This document shows, piece after piece, positions 33,231 through 38,560 of a stretch of DNA of 64,000 nucleotides. The stretch lies in the NCBI GenBank assembly GCA_937872175.1, contig CALMPI010000010.1, forward strand, positions 1-64,000, written 5' to 3'. The DNA is from an uncultured Flavobacteriales bacterium (lineage in GTDB: Bacteria > Bacteroidota > Bacteroidia > Flavobacteriales_F > PHOS-HE28). The notes beneath the pieces were generated by a model. It saw only the letters and a list, made by a program, of their open reading frames with translations. It did not search any database and was not told where the DNA came from. The translations under genes were made by a program, and so were the position numbers. Within the stretch, counting starts at the first letter, position 1. Every line of letters begins with the position of its first letter.

Positions 33231-34343
33231 ATGAAAAAGATCCTCAAATACCTCCTGTTCATCGGACTGGCCGTCCTGTTCATCTGGACGCTCTACTTCC
33301 TCTATCAGAAAAGCGCCAGCCGTCCCGACGAGTTCAAGGTGGAGAAGCTCACGCGGAACAACGTGGTGAAGAAGACCGTGGCCAACGGCAAGATGGTGCC
33401 GCGCAAGGAGATCATGATCAAGCCCGTGGTGAGCGGCATCATCGCCGAGCTCTACGTCGAGGCCGGGGATGAGGTGAAGCGCGACCAGCCACTGGCCAAG
33501 ATCAAGATCGTGCCCGACATGCTGAGCCTGAGCAACGCCGAGAACCGCGTGCGCAACGCCGAGATCGCCCGAGAGAACGCCCGCCTCAACTACGACCGCA
33601 ACAAGCCGCTCGCCGACAAGGGCGTGATCAGTGCGGCCGAGATGCAGGGCTTCGACGTGGCCCTGAAGAACGCCGACCAGGAGGTGGCCGCCGCGAAGGA
33701 GGCGCTCCAGGTGGTGCGCGACGGGATCAGCCGAAGCAGCGCCGGCAACACCATCGTGCGCAGCACCATCGATGGCATGGTGCTCGACGTGCCCGTGAAG
33801 GAGGGCAACAGCGTGATCGAGCGCAACAACTTCAACGAGGGCACCACCATCGCCGCCATCGCCGACATGAACGACCTGATCTTCCAGGGCAAGGTGGACG
33901 AGAGCGAGGTGGGTAAGGTGAAGCTCGGCATGCCCGTGGTGCTCACGGTGGGCGCCATCGAGAACGCCCGGTGGGACGCCGACCTGGAGTATATCGCCCC
34001 GAAGGGTGTGGAGGAGAACGGCGCCATCCAGTTCGAGATCCGGGCGGCCGTGAAGCTCAAGGACGGGCAGACCCTGCGCAGTGGCTACAGTGCCAACGCG
34101 GACATCGTGCTGGAGCAGCGCGACAGCGTGTACACCGTGCCGGAGAGCATCGTGGAGTTCAATGACAAGGGCGACAGCGCCTTCGTGCAGGTGAAGAACG
34201 GGGAGGAATGGAAGAAGACCTACATCCGCACCGGTCTCAGCGATGGCATCAACCTCGAGGTGCTCGAGGGCGTTTCGCCCGGGACCGAACTGAAGGGCGC
34301 GAAGATCGAGGACAAGGAGAGCGTTGGCGTCACGGTGAACTGA
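33231..34343 (+). CDS. HlyD/MacA-type membrane-fusion adaptor
   Basis: 370 residues. One N-terminal membrane anchor (LLFIGLAVLFIWTLYFL), a lipoyl/barrel-sandwich segment (GIIAELYVEAGDEVKRDQPLAKI), an alpha-helical hairpin (about 100-160) and beta-barrel domains with GYSANADIVLEQRDSVYTVP near the end. It should bridge the MacB-like permeases to an outer-membrane channel, which is not encoded in this window. Last gene of the exporter operon, 36 bp after the second permease. Confidence 0.9.
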   Translation: MKKILKYLLFIGLAVLFIWTLYFLYQKSASRPDEFKVEKLTRNNVVKKTVANGKMVPRKEIMIKPVVSGIIAELYVEAGDEVKRDQPLAKIKIVPDMLSLSNAENRVRNAEIARENARLNYDRNKPLADKGVISAAEMQGFDVALKNADQEVAAAKEALQVVRDGISRSSAGNTIVRSTIDGMVLDVPVKEGNSVIERNNFNEGTTIAAIADMNDLIFQGKVDESEVGKVKLGMPVVLTVGAIENARWDADLEYIAPKGVEENGAIQFEIRAAVKLKDGQTLRSGYSANADIVLEQRDSVYTVPESIVEFNDKGDSAFVQVKNGEEWKKTYIRTGLSDGINLEVLEGVSPGTELKGAKIEDKESVGVTVN

Positions 34344-34347
34344 CCGC

Positions 34348-35361
34348 TCAGGGTTGTGGAAGCGCCTTCACGTGGGCGCGGAACGCCACGCCGTTCACCG
34401 TGCCCTCCACATCGGTCGCGTTCAGCTTCACCCCCTTCACGTCGTAGAAAAGACCGTGGGGTGAGATGGCCTTCACTCCCAACTCCCTGCCGTCCGGCGC
34501 GAGGGCTTTGATGTCGAACACGTTGCCCAGCCGGCGCACCGCCTTCACAGGCAACCGGGTGCCATCTGCGGCCACGGCCTTCACGTCCAGGATGGTGCCA
34601 TCCGGCAGCAACGCGTTCACGGACATGGGAGTGTCCTGGGTGGCCAGCACCTTCACGGGCACCTCCCGGCCGTTCACCAGTGCGCGCACATCGAGCATGG
34701 TCGCGTCGCCATCGGCCAGGAGTGCCTTGATGTCGTGCATGGTGCCGGCCGCGTCGATGGCCTTGATGCCGAGCAGGTGGCCGTCCGGCTGCACACACTT
34801 CACGTTCCACACCGGGTCACCGTCATGGTCCGTAGGATGCGGAAGAGCCTTCACATGCGCCGCGATCGCCACGCCGTTCATGCGCTCCCCGTCATCGGAA
34901 AGATCCAGGCCCTTCACATCGCGCATGCGGCCGTCCGGGGCGATGGCCTTCACCGCGTAAAGGGACCATTCATCGCCGATGGCCTTGATGTGGACCAAGT
35001 GACCGGCGCGGGCCACGCCCTTCACATCGAGGCGGCGACCGTCGGGGCCGATGGCCTTCACGTCCAGCAGGGTGCCGTCCGTCGCAATGGCCTTCACCGG
35101 ACGCATCGCTTCATCACTTGCGATCACCTTCACCGGGAGCAAGCTCCCGTTGTCCATCGCCTTCACGTCCATCACATGCGTGTCGTCCTCTTCGAGGGCC
35201 TTCACGTCCAATACGCGACCTGATCGGTCGAAGGCCTTCACGTCCAGGGTGGTGCCGTTGGGCAGCACGGCCTTGATGTTCCAGATGATCGGGCCGGTCT
35301 GCGCGGTGGCCCAGAGCGGCAGCAGCAGTGACAAGGCGATCAACCGGCCAGGCATGCGCAT
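34348..35361 (-). CDS. secreted protein made of 2 x 12 copies of a 12-residue repeat
   Basis: 337 residues from MRMPGRLIALSLLLPLWATA, a signal peptide. The whole mature protein is a tandem repeat of about 12 residues with consensus DVKAIxxDGxxL (Asp/Pro-Val-Lys-Ala at the start, Asp-Gly in the turn, Leu at the end), 24 copies. The copies fall into two blocks of 12 that correspond one to one: each opens with WN(I/V)K, has a longer third repeat, a shorter fourth, an extended eleventh with NGVA, and ends HVKALPxP. The regular spacing predicts a beta-solenoid or propeller-like fold. No family was recognised and no T9SS tail is seen. It converges on the adaptor gene with a 4-bp gap. Confidence 0.85.
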   Translation of the reverse strand: MRMPGRLIALSLLLPLWATAQTGPIIWNIKAVLPNGTTLDVKAFDRSGRVLDVKALEEDDTHVMDVKAMDNGSLLPVKVIASDEAMRPVKAIATDGTLLDVKAIGPDGRRLDVKGVARAGHLVHIKAIGDEWSLYAVKAIAPDGRMRDVKGLDLSDDGERMNGVAIAAHVKALPHPTDHDGDPVWNVKCVQPDGHLLGIKAIDAAGTMHDIKALLADGDATMLDVRALVNGREVPVKVLATQDTPMSVNALLPDGTILDVKAVAADGTRLPVKAVRRLGNVFDIKALAPDGRELGVKAISPHGLFYDVKGVKLNATDVEGTVNGVAFRAHVKALPQP

Positions 35362-35408
35362 GGGATGGCTTTTCACCGAAGGTAGTCCGACATCCGCGAA
35401 CACGACGA

Positions 35409-36941
35409 TCACCGGATGAACCGCGCGCGATGCACGGTGCGGGGTCCGATGAGCTCCAGGACATGCTCCCCGGGCGGCAGTTCGTGAAGGTCCAGCGGCC
35501 TGGACGCCTCGGCCACACCTTGGGCCAGCAATTGGCCGGTGAGCGAGATCACGCGGAAGGACCACCGGTCGCCAGGGGCACCGCCACGGACATGGACCAG
35601 ACCGCTCTCCGACGGCACCGGATAGAGCATGAGGCCCTCGCGGGTCACTTCATCCGAAGCAATGCCGGTGGAAAGGCAGAGCGGAGCGGCGGCGACGGTC
35701 AGCGGATCGAAGGATGGCGTGAACGCTACGGAGGTGATGAGCGGCACGGAGGAGGAGTGCACCAAGGGGTTGGCGGTCGCCACCACGGTCAGCACGCCCA
35801 GGCTGTCCGCTTCCCCGCACGGAGGCGGCAGCGCGGTGAGGTCGATGAGCTCCACGCTGGACCGGTCCGGGGCGCTCGCGCCGCATCGGACCAGATGATC
35901 GTCGTCCACCGCCACAGCGGTGAATGCGGCCAGGGCGGGGTCCGGAGCCACCTGCCAGAGCACGTCGCCGTTCGCGGTCATCCGCAGCAGGACACTGTTG
36001 TCGTAGGGCACGGATGCCAGCAGGATGACCTCGATCAGAACATCGCCGCCGGGAAGGGGGGTGAGCATCACCTCGCCGAAGTCGCGGACGGCATGGTCGA
36101 GCAGCCTGCACCAGAGGACCGCACCTTGGGGATCGAGCATCACCAGGCTCATCTCACCGGCGGTGGGGTTGAACAAGGTCTCGATCGCGAGAAGGATATT
36201 GCCGCTCGGGAGCACTGCGGCTTCGTACGTGCGGTTGTTGTTGCTACCGTCGATGATCAGGCTCTCGCTCCAGAGCACCGTGCCATCCGCTGCCAGCCTT
36301 GAGATCACCGAATTGGTGGAGGAGCTTCCGAAGAAGAGGACGAGGTCATCCGCGATGCCTGGGGCAAGACCCGCGTACAACGCGCCACCGTTCGCCTGCG
36401 GGAAGAGCCGACCCTGCGGACCGGCCCCATCCGGCCCGGTGCGCACCACAGCGAAGGTCGACGGCGCCATCGAATAGGCGAGGACGGCCAGGTCGCCCGA
36501 GCTGGTGCGCACCGCGTCAAGCGGACCGAGGTCCAGGGTATCCACCTGGTGATACACGGCATCCAGCGGTGTTCCGCTCCCGCTGATCCGGATGAACGCG
36601 GGACAGGTCCTTCCCAGGACATTGTCCCACTGGCCGCAGAGGACCAGGTCGCCGGTGGAGGTCTCGAACGGGGCGGCGCGGAGCGCCAGTGGGTCGGTGG
36701 ACCGAAGAGCCCAAAGCACTGTTCCGTCGGAAGAGAGCCGCAGCACGGGTGGCTGGGCACTGCCCAGCCGACCGGGGCTTACGAGCAGGTCGCCATTGCC
36801 GGCGGTGCGGATGTCCGAGAAGCCCAGGCCGGTGGGAGCGGCGTACTTCAGGGTGAAGGGTGCCTGGGCGTGCGCGGCCCACAGGCTGAGCACAGTGCCG
36901 AGGATGAGCGGGACTCGGAACAAGTTGGGCCTTGGGCGCAT
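35409..36941 (-). CDS. secreted propeller-like protein with T9SS sorting domain
   Basis: 510 residues from MRPRPNLFRVPLILG, signal peptide to AAHAQ. The body repeats DG/NG-turn motifs (LRLSSDGTVLWALR, ISRLAADGTVLWSESL, LRMTANGDVLWQV) spaced as blades of a beta-propeller. The T9SS type A domain starts LMLYPVPSESGL and ends RARFIR. Surface location inferred; function unknown. Divergent from the beta-lactamase-like gene at 37043, sharing a 101-bp gap. Confidence 0.82.
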   Translation of the reverse strand: MRPRPNLFRVPLILGTVLSLWAAHAQAPFTLKYAAPTGLGFSDIRTAGNGDLLVSPGRLGSAQPPVLRLSSDGTVLWALRSTDPLALRAAPFETSTGDLVLCGQWDNVLGRTCPAFIRISGSGTPLDAVYHQVDTLDLGPLDAVRTSSGDLAVLAYSMAPSTFAVVRTGPDGAGPQGRLFPQANGGALYAGLAPGIADDLVLFFGSSSTNSVISRLAADGTVLWSESLIIDGSNNNRTYEAAVLPSGNILLAIETLFNPTAGEMSLVMLDPQGAVLWCRLLDHAVRDFGEVMLTPLPGGDVLIEVILLASVPYDNSVLLRMTANGDVLWQVAPDPALAAFTAVAVDDDHLVRCGASAPDRSSVELIDLTALPPPCGEADSLGVLTVVATANPLVHSSSVPLITSVAFTPSFDPLTVAAAPLCLSTGIASDEVTREGLMLYPVPSESGLVHVRGGAPGDRWSFRVISLTGQLLAQGVAEASRPLDLHELPPGEHVLELIGPRTVHRARFIR

Positions 36942-37030
36942 GGCGTGCAGTGATCTGCCCAATAGGACGCAGAGGGACATACCGGTTGCCTCCATGGCCG
37001 CTCTCCGGGCCGGTCGAACCCATCGTGCTG

Positions 37031-37038
37031 TACACTTG
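37031..37038 (+). promoter_or_regulatory. promoter box 4 nt before the beta-lactamase-like gene
   Basis: TACACTTG, then TGCC, then the ATG at 37043. Confidence 0.45.
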
Positions 37039-37042
37039 TGCC

Positions 37043-38560
37043 ATGCGCCGCACCCTGACACGCCGAACCCTTCGCGCGAACCTGCTCGCCCTGTTCACCC
37101 TGGGCACCATGCTGGCGACCGCCCAGCCCGACCTTGCCGCGTTGGACGCCTACCTCGCCGATGCCCTCAAGCGCTTCGACCAGCCCGGTCTGGCCGTGGG
37201 CGTGGTGAAGGACGGACAGCTGGTGTGGAGCAAGGGCTACGGCAAGCTCGACCTGGCCAAGGCCGATCTGGTGACACCCAACAGCATCTTCTACCTGGCC
37301 AGCATCAGCAAGGCCTTCACCGCCTGCGCCGTGGGCCTGCTGGTGGACGAGGGCAAGGTGGACTGGAACGACCCGGTGGTGAAGCACCTGCCCTGGTTCA
37401 GGACGCCGGATGCGTATGTCACCGAGCACATGCTGGTGAAGGACCTGCTCTGCCACCGCAGTGGATGGATCACCTTCGATGGCGATCTGCTGTGGTATGG
37501 GACCGACTACGATCAGCGCCAGATCCTGGAGCGTCACGCGCACGCGCCCTTCACGCACCCCTTCCGCGATGCGTTCGGTTACAGCAACCTGATGTTCATC
37601 GCGGCCGCGCAGCTCATCGAGGCGGTGAGCGGGCAGACCTGGGACGCCTTTCTGACCAGGCGGATCATCGAGCCGCTGGGCATGACCCGCACCGTGGTGG
37701 AGACGGCCGAACTCGCCCGCTTCACGGACGTGGCGCTTCCGCATGTGCGCAAGGGCCAGGACCCCGCCGCCGCGCAGAAGAGCATGCCCTACCAGCCGCT
37801 TCGCGGGGCCGATGGTGCCTGTGGGGTGAACAGCTGTGTGACGGACCTGGCGAAGTGGGACGCCATGTGGGCCGATGAGGGCAAGGTGAACGGGAAGCCG
37901 TTCCTGAGCGAGGCGAGCTACCGCACGATCACCAGCAGCCACCTGCCGATGGGCACCGAAGGCGCCGGGCTGGGCTGGTTCCTGGAGGAGTTCAACGGCC
38001 ATGCGGTGATCACGCACAGCGGCGGCATGCCCGGCTTCATCCTGAACCACGCGGTGGTGCCCGACCAGGACCTGGCGGTGATCGCCCTGGGCAACGGGGA
38101 GAGCTACAGCGTGTTCGCCGCCACCCAGAAGCTGCTCGACGCCTGGCTGGGCGAGGGCAAGGCGGATCCGGTGGGCGACATGCTGCCGCGGGTGGCCAAG
38201 CGAAAGGAGCGCGAGGGCCAGCGCGTGGCCGCACGAACGGCCGCCCGCGTGGCGAAGACCAAGCCCTCGCTCCCGCTCGGCGGTTTCGTGGGCACGTACA
38301 CGGACAAGATCTACGGGGAGGCCACCATCACCGAGGCGAACGGCGCGCTGCAGCTCACCTTCCAGCCGGCGAAGGACCTCTTGACCGGGGCGCTGGCGCA
38401 CTGGCACTACGACACCTTCCAGTGGCAGCACGCGGATCCGTTCCTGGAGCCGGGGTACATCACCTTCACCTTCGACACCGACCACAAGGTGAGCGGTTTC
38501 AAGGTGGACCTGCACAGTCCGGACTTCCATTTTTACAAGCTGGACTTCCGCCGGAAATGA
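37043..38560 (+). CDS. class C beta-lactamase-like serine hydrolase
   Basis: 505 residues, signal peptide to ATAQ. Serine hydrolase motifs: SISK (Ser87, Lys90), YSN (Tyr180, Asn182) and a late HSGG that replaces the KTG box. A C-terminal beta-barrel extension (GGFVGTYTDKIYGEATITE onward) resembles the DUF3471 tail. Members include D-aminopeptidases, esterases and peptidoglycan hydrolases; antibiotic hydrolysis is not implied. Periplasmic or surface. A 9-bp hairpin terminator follows. Confidence 0.9.
   Translation: MRRTLTRRTLRANLLALFTLGTMLATAQPDLAALDAYLADALKRFDQPGLAVGVVKDGQLVWSKGYGKLDLAKADLVTPNSIFYLASISKAFTACAVGLLVDEGKVDWNDPVVKHLPWFRTPDAYVTEHMLVKDLLCHRSGWITFDGDLLWYGTDYDQRQILERHAHAPFTHPFRDAFGYSNLMFIAAAQLIEAVSGQTWDAFLTRRIIEPLGMTRTVVETAELARFTDVALPHVRKGQDPAAAQKSMPYQPLRGADGACGVNSCVTDLAKWDAMWADEGKVNGKPFLSEASYRTITSSHLPMGTEGAGLGWFLEEFNGHAVITHSGGMPGFILNHAVVPDQDLAVIALGNGESYSVFAATQKLLDAWLGEGKADPVGDMLPRVAKRKEREGQRVAARTAARVAKTKPSLPLGGFVGTYTDKIYGEATITEANGALQLTFQPAKDLLTGALAHWHYDTFQWQHADPFLEPGYITFTFDTDHKVSGFKVDLHSPDFHFYKLDFRRK

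Follow-up and report, generated by a model that had tools for sequence, protein, structure and literature searches.

The window analysed here, 64,000 nucleotides of contig CALMPI010000010.1 from an uncultured Flavobacteriales bacterium, carries on its minus strand a gene that runs from an ATG at 35361 to a final codon at 34351-34353 and a stop codon at 34348-34350. Together with its neighbours and the subdivisions of its product, the gene is listed in Table 1. Comparison with a close orthologue gave a dN of 0.10 and a dS of 0.54, which shows purifying selection on a maintained gene. The product had been described in the initial annotation as a secreted protein made of two blocks of twelve 12-residue repeats, and a signal peptide can indeed be read at residues 1-20. 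A signal peptide or a lipobox is present, by eye, in nearly all complete homologues, and many homologues from Flavobacteriaceae are lipoproteins as judged by their lipobox. Every clue to location agrees, and we infer that the protein is extracytoplasmic: the signal peptide would direct its exit from the cytoplasm and, since the window's lineage lacks a lipobox, it would be either periplasmic or released. The upstream neighbour (35409-36941, minus strand) also encodes a secreted protein, whose similarity to PQQ/BamB-like propellers is weak (E 5e-4) and falls below the cut-off; its C-terminus resembles a sorting tail for type IX secretion, without confirmation from NCBIfam.

Table 1. Features of the DUF7486 locus and its flanks, in window coordinates.
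Feature	Coordinates	Strand	Basis
Periplasmic adaptor of MacA type, converging on the DUF7486 gene	33231..34343	+	NCBIfam TIGR01730 RND_mfp above cut-off
DUF7486 protein CDS, 337 aa, including stop codon	34348..35361	-	ORF; two matches to Pfam PF24307, E 4e-99; dN/dS to orthologues about 0.1-0.2
Sec-type signal peptide, residues 1-20, MRMPGRLIALSLLLPLWATA, without lipobox	35302..35361	-	sequence reading by eye
Block 1, first DUF7486 domain, 147 aa	34843..35283	-	PF24307 match 34843-35289, 171.5 bits
Block 1 degenerate twelfth strand, GERMNG	34873..34890	-	alignment to family match columns
Inter-block linker, 11 residues, PHPTDHDGDPV	34810..34842	-	sequence reading
Block 2, second DUF7486 domain, 150 aa; modelled part	34360..34809	-	PF24307 match 34360-34812, 161.9 bits; AF2 model
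Block 2 degenerate twelfth strand, VEGTVNG, tight NG turn into strand 13	34390..34410	-	model DSSP strand 136-138; E135 95%, G140 96% conserved
Serine hydrolase, beta-lactamase type (named by eye)	37043..38560	+	tblastn synteny; start codon by eye

Family assignment, repeats and predicted structure

The Pfam profile PF24307 (DUF7486) matches the whole protein with a score of 328.9 bits, the cut-off being 27, in two stretches that cover the domain nearly in full, with the blocks spanning profile positions 3-154 and 4-154 of 154. On this profile match the window protein is a two-domain DUF7486 protein, a member of a family that is already catalogued and whose function is not known, and the earlier statement that the repeat belongs to no known family no longer holds; such a match is the outcome that the initial annotation itself had named as its refutation. 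As the family is catalogued, the repeat itself is no discovery; what is added here is a confident all-beta model, a set of invariant residues testable as a ligand site, a repeated doubling of the block and a fixed genomic site of gain and loss. NCBIfam contained no model for the protein, single-sequence and profile searches of PDB sequences returned nothing under E 0.1, defence and phage libraries gave weak local matches only, and no paper in the literature library searched names DUF7486 or PF24307. One relative (L026, 6043-6978) also passes the Pfam cut-off for PepSY_2 (28.8 against 24.3 bits over 31 residues), probably because its strand-DG-strand pattern is locally similar.

Each block comprises twelve copies of xVKAIxxDGxx, and the two blocks are 47% identical to each other. 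The mature part contains 25 motifs of the form [VI][KRN][ACGV][ILVFM], with 18 neighbour-to-neighbour steps of 11 or 12 residues. As 2000 shuffles of the same part gave a mean of 0.85 motifs (maximum 5) and at most one step of that length, the repeats are real. The central lysines are spaced by 12, 12, 13, 11, 12, 12, 12, 12, 12, 12 and 21 residues in block 1 and by 12, 12, 14, 11, 12, 12, 12, 12, 12, 12 and 23 residues in block 2. The blocks thus align in register, with the long third, short fourth and extended eleventh units recurring in both, as had been noted at the outset. The extended eleventh unit contains a degenerate twelfth strand, VExxxNG, that lies in register at Lys+12 and accounts for the thirteen strands per block in the predicted structure.

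AlphaFold2 modelling of block 2, with an input of 13 blocks taken from the window and from six related loci, produced a model with a pLDDT of 93.8 and a pTM of 0.89, consisting of consecutive beta strands only. Two of the five models were poor (pLDDT 59 and 47), and a single-sequence model of the whole protein (pLDDT 37.9) was set aside. The thirteen strands fall at residues 2-6, 12-18, 24-31, 39-45, 48-55, 62-67, 73-79, 85-94, 97-103, 109-115, 121-127, 136-138 and 141-149. Each domain would be a compact all-beta body of thirteen short strands with DG or NG turns; twelve of the strands are recognisable copies of the 12-residue strand-turn unit, and the total is one more than the twelve strands per block suggested initially. 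A transmembrane barrel was considered and rejected, as strands of about 7 residues are too short.

Distribution, block doubling and genomic site

Within the window's own GTDB family, of which one genus was sampled, DUF7486 occurs patchily, in 10 of 45 genomes; copies with both ends present are of the two-block form, and contig ends truncate some of the others. It is also found in one large Flavobacteriales family, presumably the Flavobacteriaceae, where 34 of 397 sampled genomes (about 9%) carry either a form with one block in approximately 205 residues or a form with two blocks in about 370-390 residues, and where two genomes have two adjacent single-block genes each. Wider sampling at the level of phylum, class and order yielded almost nothing beyond these two families, and plasmid, phage and viral collections gave no DUF7486 match.

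A tree built from 80 blocks places the two blocks of the window's lineage together in one clade (99/95), within which the first blocks (99/95) and the second blocks (99/86) each form a clade. A separate clade of 26 rows (99/92) likewise divides into first and second blocks and, since each of the two clades has such a split, doubling happened at least twice. On this tree, the block doubling in the window's lineage is separate from at least one duplication in Flavobacteriaceae, and the most direct reading makes the single block the older state. The order of events put forward in the initial annotation, a domain that arose first and was duplicated later, agrees with these results: the single-block homologues that it proposed to look for were found in the large Flavobacteriales family, and the two blocks of the window's lineage fall into one clade.

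The MacA-type adaptor next to the gene is kept in 40 of the 44 genomes of the window's family. In several relatives without DUF7486 the serine hydrolase lies directly beyond MacA, and in most carriers with a contig spanning the site DUF7486 is found between these two genes, with or without a further secreted protein; in one carrier (G016) it lies on another contig. A relative whose MacA is 93% identical (G037) is without the DUF7486 gene. In the window's genus DUF7486 is thus an accessory gene that is gained or lost mostly at a fixed site. Its coming and going beside a conserved MacA makes a functional link to the MacAB exporter unlikely. The corresponding indel site extends over 34344-37043 in the window and is also seen at L151, L155, L156 and L160, with DUF7486, alone or accompanied by a further secreted protein, in some of the genomes.

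Analysis of the neighbours in 49 stretches and the window identified no conserved partner. Local associations, with gene families named by eye, were seen in individual groups. At L083 and L085 (genomes G498 and G703), two adjacent single-block genes lie about 110 bases beyond an apparent molybdenum hydroxylase large subunit on the same strand, and in G636 (L093) the DUF7486 gene is near molybdenum-hydroxylase-type, XdhC-like and MocA-like genes. In one Flavobacteriaceae group (L062, L076 and L077) a metallo-beta-lactamase-fold-like hydrolase is located 174-205 bases upstream of the two-block gene, again on the same strand.

Conserved residues and putative role

Across 105 blocks, W1, K53, G126 and H146 are invariant, and K125, K128, E135 and P51 are conserved in at least 93%. 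Neither Ser nor Cys is among the highly conserved positions (95 of the 105 blocks have no Cys at all), so that no obvious catalytic set emerges. The residues W1, K53, K125-G126-x-K128, E135 and H146 break the repeat and are not explained by it alone; they would be the best candidates for a functional site and would mark a likely ligand site. The repeated D-x-K would probably form rows of salt bridges along one face of many strands.

With neither a catalytic signature nor a conserved partner gene, a binding or scaffold role is favoured, and we tentatively propose, stopping a little short of calling it probable, that the protein is exported and works at the cell envelope as a non-enzymatic module for binding or scaffolding. 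Such a role is consistent with the two PF24307 domains, the confident all-beta model and the export signals of nearly all complete homologues, and also with the convergent tandem doubling of the block, which could confer higher avidity. A lack of a conserved operon partner across the family is expected for a self-contained module, although the one Flavobacteriaceae pair that immediately follows a molybdenum hydroxylase could hint at a role tied to a specific partner in that lineage. Confidence in the proposal is also lowered by the two poor AF2 models and because the invariance of H, E and K could also mark a catalytic site. An enzyme, with W1, K53, K125, K128, E135 and H146 as its active site on a beta scaffold, would account for the position-specific invariance and for the departure of several of these residues from the repeat consensus; as no family or fold match to any enzyme was obtained, we regard this as quite improbable.

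Comparison with known folds and families

The strict repeat length had initially been taken to suggest a closed beta-propeller or a beta-solenoid. Structure prediction, which had been proposed as a check, delivered a confident all-beta block and no support for either fold: neither was recognised among the fold-search matches listed, where an absent row is not an exclusion, and the best of the weak alignments were to beta-trefoils. Foldseek against the PDB reached a best E of 0.03 with TM scores of at most 0.3, and against viral models it returned nothing under E 0.03. Of the 50 rows listed by VIA-align, nearly all are trefoils or trefoil-containing proteins (among them FGF1, Symfoil, the BoNT binding domain, the MOA lectin and the RyR N-terminal domain), with Z scores of 3.0-4.3 at about 4-5 Å, values that lie below the level the tool calls meaningful and come from a candidate list that is itself rich in trefoils. 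Solved structures thus offer no convincing match, and we assign no fold, treating trefoil-likeness as the leading lead and not as a finding.

A beta-trefoil consists of three units of four strands, with six hairpins of which three form a barrel; a block of this kind could be a lectin-like or receptor-binding domain. Besides the VIA-align matches, the twelve main strands fit this arrangement loosely, and the model has two-residue turns after strands 4, 8 and 12 and nowhere else, the remaining loops having five to eight residues; this hints at a three-fold order that would arise by chance in about 2% of cases for evenly spaced turns, a figure calculated post hoc. Set against this, the Z scores and the Foldseek values are too low, the thirteenth strand is in excess, and the strand cores compared at a four-repeat shift are no more alike than chance (p 0.58), although three-fold sequence pseudo-symmetry is common and not obligatory in trefoils and many true ones lack it. 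Mean-field covariation over the 105 blocks (Neff 71) placed adjacent antiparallel strands barely above the rest and is too weak to assign strands or topology. On balance, we consider a trefoil doubtful.

MORN repeats are antiparallel strand-turn units with glycine turns, and their hairpins recur roughly every 23-24 residues. A meander of this kind, antiparallel and either open or rolled, in which two 12-residue units make a hairpin of about 23 residues, would suit a single-strand repeat with a DG turn, and among the viral-library rows of Foldseek are several proteins with MORN repeats and one that is YwqK-like. These rows have TM scores of at most 0.2, however, no MORN-named chain is among the PDB rows listed and the Pfam scan, taken as far as E 10, shows no MORN model, which makes a MORN-like meander an unlikely description of the block. 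It is possible, and to us a candidate more than an expectation, that DUF7486 represents a fold without a solved relative, composed of approximately thirteen copies of one 12-residue strand-turn peptide. If the fold were new, DUF7486 would offer an unusually clear example from nature of a one-strand peptide that grew into a globular domain.

Compared with the family as defined in Pfam, the window protein shows no essential difference: one-block and two-block architectures both occur in DUF7486, and the lineage of the window protein is a separate one with a block duplication of its own. With the MORN repeats, DUF7486 shares antiparallel strand-turn repeats, glycine turns and the hairpin period, alongside the weak Foldseek rows, and it differs from them in its consensus and in the lack of a MORN profile match. 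With beta-trefoils such as FGF1, Symfoil and the ricin-type lectins, it has in common the number of main strands (twelve), tight turns that in the model follow each fourth strand, and its best, though weak, alignments (Z no higher than 4.3), whereas the 12-residue repeat per strand, the thirteenth strand and a sequence without a three-fold signal set it apart.
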